64,000 nt of DNA, from the NCBI RefSeq assembly GCF_014270065.1, contig NZ_JACNME010000003.1:248001-312000 (forward strand). Direction: 5' to 3'. Positions within the stretch are counted from its first letter, which is position 1. Each line of letters opens with the position of its first letter. Below, in pieces: positions 10,841-58,439 of this stretch. The stretch comes from Quadrisphaera sp. RL12-1S. GTDB taxonomy: Bacteria; Actinomycetota; Actinomycetes; Actinomycetales; Quadrisphaeraceae. Both the position numbers and the translations under genes were made by a program. Below the pieces are notes generated by a model. The model ran no database searches and was not told the origin of the DNA. It saw only the letters and a list, made by a program, of their open reading frames with translations.

Positions 10841-11926
10841 ATGACGACGATGCGCGACGTCGCGGCGGCGGCCGGCGTCTCGCCCATGACCGTCTCCAAC
10901 GTGCTCGCCGGCCGCAGCAACGTCAGCGAGGAGACGCGCCGCCGCGTGCTCGACGTCGTCGAGCGCACCGGGTACCGCGTCAACACCGCGGCGCAGAGCC
11001 TGCGGCGCGGCCGCACGGGCATCGTGGGGCTCGCCGTGCCCGAGGTCCACAGCCACTACTTCGGCCTGCTGGCCGCGCGCCTCATCGCCCGCCTCGCCCC
11101 CGAGGGCCTGCGGGTGGTGGTCGAGCAGACCGGCGCCAGCCGCGAGGGCGAGCTGGCGGCCATCACCGCCTCGCGGGTCAGCGCCTACGACGGCCTGGTG
11201 CTCTCGGCGGTCGGCCTCGACCCCGACGACGTGCTGGCCATCGCCGGGGACCTGCCCGTCGTCGTCCTCGGCGAACGGCAGGACGTCCGCCGCTTCGACC
11301 ACGTGGAGATGGCCAACACCGAGGGCGCCGCCGCGGCGACCCGTCTGCTGCTGGACCGGGGCTGCCGCCACCTGGTGGCCCTCGGGATGCCGGACCTCAC
11401 CTCCCTGGACTCCCTGCACCTCCCGGACGACGACGCGCGGCCGCGCCCGCAGGGCCCCGGCCACCACGGTGACGCCTTCCGGCTGCGGGCGCTGGGGGTG
11501 AGGGACGCCGTGGCGGCGGTCCCGGGCGCCCGCGCCGTGGCCGTGCACGGCGGAGCGAGCACGCTGGCCAGCGGCGCGGCGCTCACGCGGGAGGCGCTGG
11601 TCCGGGAGCCGCGGCTGGACGGCCTCGTCTGCGCCACCGACACCCTGGCCATCGGGGCGCTGCGCGCCCTGGCGGACGCGGGCCGGCGCGTGCCGGACGA
11701 CGTGCTGGTGGCCGGGTTCGACGACGTCGCCGACGGCGCCTTCACGGTGCCGTCCCTGACCACGGTCACCCCCGGGCACGACGTCATGGTCGAGGAGACC
11801 GCGCGCCTGCTGCTGCGCCGCATCGCCGACCCCACCGCCGCGCCGGAGCGCTTCGTGAGCCCGTTCGCGGTGGTGGAACGGGAGTCGACCCGCCGCACGC
11901 CGGGCCCCGGAGGCCACGGCAGCTGA
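10841..11926 (+). CDS. LacI-family transcriptional regulator
   Basis: About 361 residues. The N-terminal LacI helix-turn-helix is plain (MRDVAAAAGVSPMTVSNVLA, then SEETRRRVLDVVERTGYRVN), followed by a periplasmic-binding-protein-like effector domain (DGLVLSAVGLD, DNLAIGALRAL-type segment, and VAGFDDV near the end). GGAGG precedes the ATG. It probably represses the divergent arabinofuranosidase gene and itself. Confidence 0.9.
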   Translation: MTTMRDVAAAAGVSPMTVSNVLAGRSNVSEETRRRVLDVVERTGYRVNTAAQSLRRGRTGIVGLAVPEVHSHYFGLLAARLIARLAPEGLRVVVEQTGASREGELAAITASRVSAYDGLVLSAVGLDPDDVLAIAGDLPVVVLGERQDVRRFDHVEMANTEGAAAATRLLLDRGCRHLVALGMPDLTSLDSLHLPDDDARPRPQGPGHHGDAFRLRALGVRDAVAAVPGARAVAVHGGASTLASGAALTREALVREPRLDGLVCATDTLAIGALRALADAGRRVPDDVLVAGFDDVADGAFTVPSLTTVTPGHDVMVEETARLLLRRIADPTAAPERFVSPFAVVERESTRRTPGPGGHGS

Positions 11927-12073
11927 CCGCGGTCACCTCCGGGACCGACCGAGGTCACCTGCGGCACTGACCGCGGTCACCTCCAGCACTGACCGCGGTC
12001 ACCTGCGGCGGCGTCGCCCCAGGAACGCCCCACCACACCTGACCGCGGTCACCCCCGGGACTGACCGCGGTCA
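11924..12073. repeat. Tandem array of 12-bp palindromes, phased at 22 bp
   Basis: TGACCGCGGTCA occurs at 11924, 11968, 11990, 12040 and 12062, with a degenerate copy CGACCGAGGTCA at 11946. Spacings are 22, 22, 22, 50 and 22 bp; each is followed by CCTGCGG/CCTCC-type spacer. The first copy overlaps the lacI-type stop codon. No gene is present between 11927 and 12192. It could be a regulator-binding array or an intergenic palindromic repeat family. Confidence 0.8.
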
Positions 12074-12149
12074 CCTGCGGCAGCGCCCACCACGGGGGTC
12101 CCGGCCCGGCTGGAGCCCGCTCGCAGCAGCCGCGCCACTATCGGTAGCA

Positions 12150-57163: not shown

Positions 57164-57190
57164 CCCCCAGCGCTCCTGCCCCGCCCCCTC

Positions 57191-57318
57191 CCCGCGACGA
57201 TCACGCACCAACACGCCACCACCCCGCGACGATCACGCACCTGCGCGTCACTTCCCCGCGACGATCACGCACTTGCGCGTCACTTCCCCGCGACGATCAC
57301 GCACCTGCGCGTCACCAC
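57191..57318. repeat. Four tandem 32-bp repeats, forward orientation
   Basis: CCCGCGACGATCACGCAC starts at 57191, 57223, 57255 and 57287, exactly 32 bp apart; the last copy runs into the 3' end of the next gene. The same unit appears inverted after that gene. Confidence 0.85.
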
Positions 57319-58256
57319 GTGCGCCGCTTGATCCGCGGCTCCATGCTCAGCAGCTCTCCCACCGCGCGTTCGACCTTCATGTCCCAGCCGAGGACGTCGC
57401 CCTTGCGCACCGGCCACACCGTCCAGCCGTGGTCGCGCCGGAGCCTGTCGCGGCGGTCGACGTCGTGGGCGCGGTCGTCGTCCTCGGTGTGGTCCTCCTC
57501 ACCGTCGAACTCGATCGCGCGGCGCAGCTCTCGCCACCCCATGTCGAGGCGGAACGCCCCCGGCCGCTCCTCCGGCACCCAGATCTGCGGCTCAGGACGC
57601 GGGAAGCCGGCGTCGACGATGCGCAGCCGCGTCCACGACTCCCCGTAGGACTCCGTCTTCGGCTCGCACAGGTCGAGGGTGCGCTTGCCGCGTCCCATCC
57701 AGCGCTGGCGCTCGGGCCACTCCTCGTAGCGCAGCCGCAGCGAGAGCGGGTCGACAAGGCCGGCGTGCGCCATCGCGTCCACCACCGCGAGCCCCATGTG
57801 CGGTGCGAGGAACCTCGCGACGTCCAGAGCGGTCCGGTCGACGCTGGTCACCGGCACGCCGGCGACGACGGTGGCGTCACCGTCCGGGATGCGGTCGAGG
57901 TGGGTGACGAGACCTCGACGGCGCGGCACCAGGAGGCCGCTCGACCTGTCCACGACGCACTCCAGCCGCAGGGGCGACCCCCGCTCGTGGGGCGCCCGCG
58001 GGTCGAAGCCGTGGAGCCAGGCGGCCGTGCCCCTCGTGACGAGCGCCCCCTCGGGCAGCGCCAGCGCCAGCACGCGGGTGCGCACCTCGTCGTCGTCGAC
58101 GGTGCGGGAGTCCGCGTACACCCCGCTGATCGGTTCGTGGAGCAGACCGGCGGCGAGGTACCTGTCGACGGTGCGCTGGCTGGTGCCGACCGCTGACAAG
58201 TCGCGGCGGGCGAAGGGCGGCACGGGCTCGGGAGGCAGCATCCGTCGGCGGGGCAT
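57312..58256 (-). CDS. AbiEi-like N-terminus with DUF559/Vsr-type endonuclease-like C-terminus
   Basis: About 314 residues. The N-terminal half resembles transcriptional-regulator/antitoxin AbiEi-type winged helices (ARRDLSAVGTSQRTVDRYLA, ISGVYADSR). The C-terminal half has the endonuclease-like core MGWRELRRAIEFDGEEDH and LRRDHGWTVWPVRKGDVL, as in DUF559/Vsr-type proteins. Nuclease activity is inferred from the motif only. The gene stands alone and is bracketed by 32-bp tandem repeats in opposite orientations. Confidence 0.7.
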   Translation of the reverse strand: MPRRRMLPPEPVPPFARRDLSAVGTSQRTVDRYLAAGLLHEPISGVYADSRTVDDDEVRTRVLALALPEGALVTRGTAAWLHGFDPRAPHERGSPLRLECVVDRSSGLLVPRRRGLVTHLDRIPDGDATVVAGVPVTSVDRTALDVARFLAPHMGLAVVDAMAHAGLVDPLSLRLRYEEWPERQRWMGRGKRTLDLCEPKTESYGESWTRLRIVDAGFPRPEPQIWVPEERPGAFRLDMGWRELRRAIEFDGEEDHTEDDDRAHDVDRRDRLRRDHGWTVWPVRKGDVLGWDMKVERAVGELLSMEPRIKRRTW

Positions 58257-58330
58257 GCCCGCACACTGGCCGGTCAGCGGAGGTGCTCGCTCCGGCTGTC
58301 CACAGGCAGGGCCGAGGTCTGTGGACGGTG

Positions 58331-58426
58331 GTGGCGCGCAGGCGCGTGATCGTCGCGGGGAAGTGGCGCGCAGGCGCGTGATCGTCGCGGGGAAGTGGCG
58401 CGCAGGCGCGTGATCGTCGCGGGGAG
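58331..58426. repeat. Three tandem 32-bp repeats, reverse orientation
   Basis: GTGGCGCGCAGGCGCGTGAT starts at 58331, 58363 and 58395. The complement matches the 57191-57318 unit with about two differences in 32. Confidence 0.85.
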
Positions 58427-58439
58427 GGAGAGGGCGCGG

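Follow-up and report, generated by a model that had tools for sequence, protein, structure and literature searches.

Small extragenic repeats are common in bacteria. The locus described here raises the question of whether such repeats can belong to a gene. In a stretch of 64,000 nucleotides from Quadrisphaera sp. RL12-1S (the window, to which positions refer unless a locus is named; the genome carrying it is 4.62 Mb), a lone nuclease-type gene stands between two arrays of a 32-bp repeat, one array the mirror image of the other. Do gene and repeats form a cassette, as a preliminary description of this DNA had suggested, or did the gene land among elements of the host? The locus contains the following features.

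57169..58437, no strand assigned: the whole cassette (repeat array, gene, inverted array), delimited by blastn against two congeners, G001 and G005
57182..57316, plus strand: left array of about four direct 32-bp units with core CCCCGCGACGATCACGCAC; cores at 57194, 57226, 57258 and 57290
57312..58256, minus strand: nuclease-type gene, 314 aa, with an AbiEi-like N-terminal region and a C-terminal Vsr/DUF559-like PD-(D/E)XK nuclease-type domain
58296..58326, no strand assigned: two DnaA-box-like motifs 5' of the gene, CTGTCCACAG and TCTGTGGAC; TCCACA at 58299, TGTGGA at 58320
58331..58425, minus strand: right array of three identical inverted 32-bp units; cores at 58344, 58376 and 58408

Tandem Repeats Finder and flank alignment reproduce the layout first described: four direct 32-bp units, a lone AbiEi-like/Vsr-DUF559-like gene, and three inverted units. 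The left array has a period of 32, 4.2 copies and 89% matches; the right array has the same period, 3.0 copies and 100% matches. The two are inverted with respect to each other, forming 100-nt arms that are 92% complementary, and the stop codon of the 314-aa gene falls within the end of the left array. Only 2 of 618 one-kb intervals of the window have an inverted flank alignment above 17, and both are this locus (71.5 and 22.5; the 99% quantile is 16). The core GCGACGATCACGC has seven exact copies at the locus. With up to two mismatches it is matched 19 times in the window, where 8.75 matches are expected and 0 of 100 shuffles reach 19. The motif shuffles and the inverted-flank nulls (618 and 776 intervals) rule out chance or a plain tandem repeat. 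A CRISPR-like array is unlikely as well, with the units mirrored about the gene and 0 of 4 scanned neighbouring proteins cas-like. A separate array at 11917-12082 of the window contains TGACCGCGGTCA five times without mismatch, some of the copies at a spacing of 22 bp; a similar motif occurs between repeats in another locus, L149.

The layout is not peculiar to this gene. The window's genome holds six homologues (the profile search lists at least seven). Homologues occur at E<=1e-10 in 31 of 59 genomes, the window's own and its relatives, and by profile at E<=1e-20 in 205 of 296 sampled Actinomycetes genomes. All six same-genome copies have inverted flanks, and the sequences of these flanks differ between copies. 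The repeats are, copy by copy, GCGACGATCACGC; GACGATCAAGGAAG; GTGATCATGGAC with AAGCACTTTCC; GTGATCATGGGCGTTGTGCGCAC; a 55-bp near-palindrome; and CCCGCACTCGCGCACCCCAGTGC.

How general is this arrangement? Two sets of homologues were scored for inverted flanks. The first consists of 40 loci, hand-picked from the ranked profile list, one per genome, and not random. A null of 776 intervals taken from these stretches has its 99% quantile at 16.5, and 28 of the 40, all of them counted, lie above it, where 0.4 would be expected. The second consists of 92 full-length unique homologues (110 loci minus nine duplicate proteins, giving 101 unique, minus nine partial ones), with some genomes contributing several. 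Inverted flanks exceed 16.5 in 73 of the 92 and reach 21, the largest null value, in 67, these cut-offs being taken from the 776-interval null, whose flank lengths differed slightly. Among the 67, the flanks are palindromic in 33, tandem arrays (period 22-40 bp) in 17, both in 3 and neither in 20, for tested tandem periods of 22 to 41 bp only. In most members examined, the repeats mirrored on the two sides of the gene are tandem units, 22-40 bp long, or palindromes, which mostly measure 53-75 bp.

These counts, together with the empty sites described below, strengthen the reading of the locus as a cassette. The preliminary description had added that homologues lacking the repeat would speak against a connection with the gene. 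In one sense such homologues are found: relatives carry other repeats, and 19 of the 92 have no inverted flanks above the cut-off. Most of the homologues (73 of 92) have inverted flanks of their own. Two further loci resemble cassettes without a nuclease gene. At 5358-5849 of L159, a small ORF with no Pfam match, and with hydrophobic stretches by eye, lies between two mirrored pairs of 31-bp units. At 9518-9874 of L149, a direct pair and, on the other side, three 32-bp units in inverted orientation enclose about 350 bp that lack the nuclease gene.

If each gene has its own repeat, do the two change together? Repeat similarity tracks protein identity in the 67 of 92 homologues that score at least 21, the set used for the tree and for the Mantel test (r 0.61, reached in 0 of 2000 permutations, which carry no correction for relatedness). 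Between families, a common repeat motif is found in 0.348 of the 66 pairs at 40-50% protein identity and in 0.004 of the 1021 pairs below 30%. Within genera, a common motif is shared by 0 of 21 gene pairs below 35% identity, by 0.075 of the 40 pairs at 40-50%, and by 20 of 20 pairs above 70%. Repeats of the GATC type, present in 32 of the 67, require seven changes on the protein tree, against a mean of 22.5 and a minimum of 17 in 300 shuffles. Gene subfamilies hold their own repeats, and these co-diverge with the protein.

The repeats are also dispersed. A search for the 32-bp unit beyond the locus, as the preliminary description had advised, finds copies elsewhere too, nearly all of them intergenic in the 464 kb of the window's genome that were sampled. 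Copy number, which it also advised comparing among strains, separates the congeners by gene content. The window core motif, CCGCGACGATCA, has 35, 47 and 60 copies in G000, G003 and G004, the genus members with a gene of subfamily A, compared with 6, 7 and 3 in the three genus members without subfamily A. It has 1-13 copies in 14 more distant genomes, and reversed controls have 0-1. A sister motif, CCGTGATCATGG, occurs 106-264 times in every one of the six genus members and 0-6 times in 14 other genomes. A third, CGAGTCCGACGTC, is modestly enriched, with 13, 24, 8 and 21 copies in four g2 genomes and 0-9 in 16 others. A further case is L108, in another family. Allowing up to one mismatch, its genome contains 286 copies of the unit at the L108 gene, whereas 25 further genomes of that family contain 0-2.

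Repeat and gene do not always coincide. The only matches at E<=1e-10 in G004 are two pieces of one frameshifted subfamily-A gene, yet this genome has 60 copies of CCGCGACGATCA and 109 of CCGTGATCATGG despite the lack of any intact cognate gene among those matches. G003 has only partial matches for the other subfamily, despite 264 copies of CCGTGATCATGG. The repeats mostly follow the gene, with G003 and G004 as the exceptions. Nor is wide dispersal of the repeats universal, since in 180 kb of G204 (genus g68), inspected by eye, the only palindromes of the gene's type are the two at the gene.

Where do the dispersed copies lie? The 464-kb sample is 10% of the window's genome, and called ORFs cover 90% of it. 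Sites of the window core motif (P1) fall inside called ORFs in 0 of 30 cases and sites of the sister motif (P2) in 4 of 41. The sampled stretches were partly picked around known P1 matches and nuclease genes, which biases P1 density; the genic/intergenic split is no density. The sites lie mostly near the 3' side of genes: a 3' end is the gene end closest to 28 of 30 P1 sites and to 25 of 37 intergenic P2 sites, whereas among random intergenic positions this holds for 187 of 426. Dispersed copies in this genome form direct pairs with 31/32-bp spacing and inverted plus/minus pairs whose starts are 39-71 bp apart. Six such inverted pairs, when folded, give strong hairpins (z -5.7 to -10 against plain shuffles).

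These last observations fit an explanation in which the gene has no part: the repeats would be host hairpins, either terminators or elements of mRNA 3' ends, that owe their spread to ordinary recombination or an unrelated transposase, and the gene would be a passenger with a tendency to land between them. The preference for 3' gene ends and the strong folding speak for it, as does the abundance of repeats in G004, given that the one cognate gene found there is frameshifted. A passenger gene, however, fails to explain why repeats are specific to subfamilies and co-diverge with the protein, why comparable scores are so rare among other one-kb intervals, and why one species should hold 286 copies of its own unit and 25 relatives 0-2. 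We consider this explanation unlikely, although it deserves to be taken seriously. Hairpin-forming transcript ends had been among the first suggestions for the repeats; they fit the dispersed inverted pairs and leave the link to the gene unexplained. The other roles proposed at that stage, recombination ends or binding sites for the protein, are plausible. The possibility that the unit is a dispersed intergenic repeat unrelated to the gene, also raised there, proves half right: copies are indeed dispersed, yet within the genus their number goes with the subfamily-A gene (three genomes against three), and the repeat type co-diverges with the protein.

What kind of protein does the gene encode? 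Its N-terminal half is matched by the AbiEi models of PADLOC, and Pfam AbiEi_1 matches at 22.5 bits (cut-off 22.2). The Pfam MTES_1575 REase model, listed as a Vsr-family REase in extracts of PMC3710099, matches at 25.9 bits, below its cut-off of 38.2. Among 25 aligned homologues, 21 match MTES_1575, 12 AbiEi_1 and 7 DUF559 at E<=0.01. Besides the start, the residues invariant in 25 of 25 are D145, S203, E206, R210, D238, D251, G252 and G277; E206, D238 and D251 are conserved acidic residues of the putative PD-(D/E)XK domain. Against the PDB, the alignment profile finds weak matches to 3hrl, an endonuclease-like protein (E 0.014), to Vsr 1odg (0.067) and to the homing endonuclease 3r3p (0.087). 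Scans of the window protein with NCBIfam and PHROGs give no match, and those with Pfam and NCBIfam no transposase domain. An AlphaFold2 model built from five sequences is good for about residues 10-200, with pLDDT <50 at 200-257 and 274-313. For this model Foldseek ranks the AbiEi antitoxin 6y8q (E 2e-4) and Rv2827c 1zel (E 6e-4) first, in each case at a low TM-score. Among named organisms, Q. granulorum DSM 44889 (82% over the best segment) and Quadrisphaera sp. INWT6 (83%) have the proteins most similar to that of the window. Judged by its profile matches, a reasonable family label is AbiEi-like plus Vsr-type nuclease, with the activity predicted. That the nuclease match lies below the Pfam cut-off in the window protein, and that this domain is poorly modelled, counts against any reading based on a nuclease.

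The N-terminal matches to Pfam AbiEi_1 and PADLOC models, and the Foldseek hits, would suit a second alternative, that of an AbiEi-like gene for defence or of a toxin-antitoxin-like kind. The flanking repeats would then be operators or self-recognition sites and their dispersal secondary. No toxin partner is found among the adjacent ORFs, which encode a family-15 glycoside hydrolase (GH15) and a 110-aa product with no Pfam match, followed by LytB. Operators, moreover, need no mirrored copy downstream of the gene, nor tens to hundreds of copies elsewhere. We judge this alternative to be distinctly unlikely.

Has the cassette come and gone as a unit? Positions 57169-58437 have no counterpart at the orthologous site in G001, which has 93 bp of other sequence there, or in G005, which has 24 bp. 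Alignment of the flanks by blastn to the corresponding loci (L161 and L164) ends at 57168 on the left and starts at 58438 on the right in both; these are the ends of the alignments, from which the ends of the element may differ. The cassette is present at the window locus in G003 and in G004, where the gene is frameshifted; G002, whose contig ends there, was left out of this count. By flank identity G001 is the closest genome (93%), yet it is empty, and the more distant G003 and G004 are occupied. This patchy occupancy is compatible with insertion, with loss and with transfer. In another genus, the site of locus L103 is empty in 7 of 12 genomes. The cassette there is intact in G204, decayed in G187 and G119, and inverted in G092, and G106 has other sequence with a fragment of a palindrome. 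Orthologous empty sites are therefore seen in two genera. The inverted cassette of G092 (L179), turned as a whole at the same site, is what recombination between mirror-image ends would be expected to produce.

Smaller changes are seen as well. In G187 both palindromes that flank the gene are absent, with the junction GATC|AAC on both sides (the left one read by eye) and remnants of the gene kept; this rests on one genome pair, G204/G187, which has no further polymorphic palindrome pair in 180 kb. Over 100 kb, G000 and G001 differ by gains and losses of single 31- or 32-bp units and also by entire clusters that one has and the other lacks. Judged by eye, the core is better conserved between congeners than the spacers. 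The empty site of G005 has a sequence that, by eye, resembles a decayed unit; by eye, no such sequence is present at the empty L103 sites. Inspected by eye, the empty site of G001 (L161) has two copies of another repeat-like sequence, CCGGCACTCGC..GAGAGTGC, and one site may thus be reused by different repeat families.

One locus bears on exchange of the gene itself. The flanks of a gene in G002 match those of the L004 locus of G000 (89-95% on the left and 76-98% on the right, in 150-bp steps). The gene between these L004-type flanks is mostly closer to L003 (77-95%) than to L004 (69-87%), and L003 sits elsewhere in G000. The first 150-300 bp inside the repeats of G002 are diverged from both. 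An L003-type gene in L004-type flanks is what gene exchange within repeat borders would leave.

Mirror-image ends, empty sites and several related copies per genome are also features of a classical insertion sequence, here one with long terminal inverted repeats and miniature derivatives. But Pfam and NCBIfam find no transposase domain in the protein, copies in a single genome have different ends, and comparison of two loci with empty sites shows no clear target-site duplication by eye, the borders being C-rich/G-rich and diverged. We regard an insertion sequence of this kind as very improbable.

A further feature lies upstream of the genes. The sequence TCCACAG occurs in the 250-bp 5' window of 72 of the 92 homologues, compared with 2 of 92 at the 3' end and 25 of 1093 null windows. 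TCCACA lies within 130 bp of the profile-derived start in 78 of the 92, its two orientations being equal in number, and all six copies in the window's genome carry it. The family consensus, G[TC][TC][AG]TCCACAG, is typically about 50 bp before the profile-derived start. In the sample, TCCACA is found within 130 bp upstream of 14 of 405 called genes, and four of these 14 belong to the nuclease family; the longer motif is found at 4 of the 405, against 53 of 92 in the nuclease family. Of the 19 homologues without inverted flanks, 12 have the DnaA-box-like motif. According to extracts of PMC4285127, DnaA of Streptomyces coelicolor and Mycobacterium tuberculosis has TTGTCCACA as its high-affinity box. 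By this resemblance, the nuclease genes may be under the control of DnaA.

How could one protein and its repeat produce these patterns? We propose a selfish system that resembles a REPtron in layout and has as its enzyme an unrelated nuclease of PD-(D/E)XK type, with its own repeats as recognition sites. The AbiEi-like N-terminal region would recognize the repeat of its own cassette, and the PD-(D/E)XK-type domain would nick or cut at or beside it. During repair of the break, repeat units, and at times the entire cassette with its gene, could be copied, lost or exchanged, and the repeats would in this way spread between genes as small non-autonomous elements. The DnaA-like box may couple expression to replication, when a sister copy can serve in repair. 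From patterns in sequence we infer binding, cleavage, the route of repair, movement driven by the nuclease and control by DnaA. We hold this proposal, together with the view that the window locus belongs to a large family of selfish cassettes in actinobacteria, to be rather probable. A broader claim, to which we give about even chances, is that extragenic palindromes have a second source independent of RAYTs, in which Vsr-type nucleases linked to replication through a DnaA box keep and spread private repeats by cutting and repair.

The results suggest a family of selfish DNA not described before, whose nuclease may help it to spread. If the link between gene and repeat is causal, small extragenic repeats would have a second class of enzyme, and annotators an explanation for many orphan 'DUF559/AbiEi' genes. 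The link would also offer an enzyme-substrate pair that can be tested directly, with many natural variants in which the two co-diverge, and nucleases that read private repeats could supply new site specificities.

Which known systems come closest? REPtrons, as extracts of PMC6006769 and PMC8266576 present them, are tnpA-REP (RAYT) genes with HUH transposases, bordered by REPs. Like a REPtron, the cassette has a lone gene bordered by mirrored palindromic or inverted repeats; its repeats are dispersed, with inverted pairs among them, and specific to the gene; and in the window's genome as sampled they are intergenic and near the 3' ends of genes. Unlike the HUH/Y1 transposase of the REPtron, the window protein is AbiEi-like and of PD-(D/E)XK type, and several paralogous cassettes with different repeats occur in one genome. 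A search for PF01797 (Y1_Tnp) at E<=0.001 has no match in any of 14 genomes, the window's own included, and does find the domain in 5 of 14 named control genomes, one of which is E. coli. This agrees with the remark in the preliminary description that no standard element with this layout is known, RAYT/Y1 being the standard enzyme tested for. For the 14 genomes this search rejects a RAYT, except one that has diverged beyond the reach of PF01797. The idea of a REP/RAYT system whose tyrosine transposase escaped detection would suit the layout, the genomic habitat (like that of REPs described in extracts of PMC3733652) and the GTAG in repeats of some distant homologues; we put it aside almost entirely. 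The homologues in question are L048, L049 and L057, whose flanking repeats hold this tetranucleotide tag of RAYT-linked REPs and whose genomes lie outside the 14.

The repeats themselves invite comparison with the GTAG- and CGTC-tagged REP super-families (Di Nocera et al. 2013, PMC3733652), which extracts of that survey describe as small extragenic palindromes, also found as dimers, mostly 3' of genes. The window unit has, by eye, no GTAG on either strand, unlike RAYT-linked REPs. It has CGTC on one strand, and GTAG is present in repeats of some distant homologues; in the sense of the extracted text, either is a candidate tag. One REP super-family apparently lacks a dedicated transposase, according to the same extracts, in which no nuclease of the window type is linked to REPs; the word 'actinobacteria' does not occur in the paper.

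The two parts of the protein have relatives of their own. The C-terminal part gives weak profile matches to Vsr and to Vsr-like homing endonucleases (I-Bth0305I, PDB 3r3p). Unlike the latter, the window copy is intergenic rather than in an intron, has repeats on both sides and carries an AbiEi-like N-terminal region. That region resembles the antitoxin AbiEi of AbiE, a type IV toxin-antitoxin system; unlike AbiE, the cassette has no AbiEii-like partner among the scanned neighbours, and its AbiEi-like region is fused to a nuclease-type domain. In open-licence PubMed Central (preprints excluded), no paper treats DUF559 together with inverted repeats, and none of the matches listed, judged by titles and the starts of abstracts, joins DUF559/AbiEi nucleases to inverted or extragenic repeats. 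We count the cassettes as a new kind because the enzyme that defines the nearest kind, the Y1 transposase, was tested for in 14 genomes and not found; by layout alone, the family may be classed with the REPtrons.
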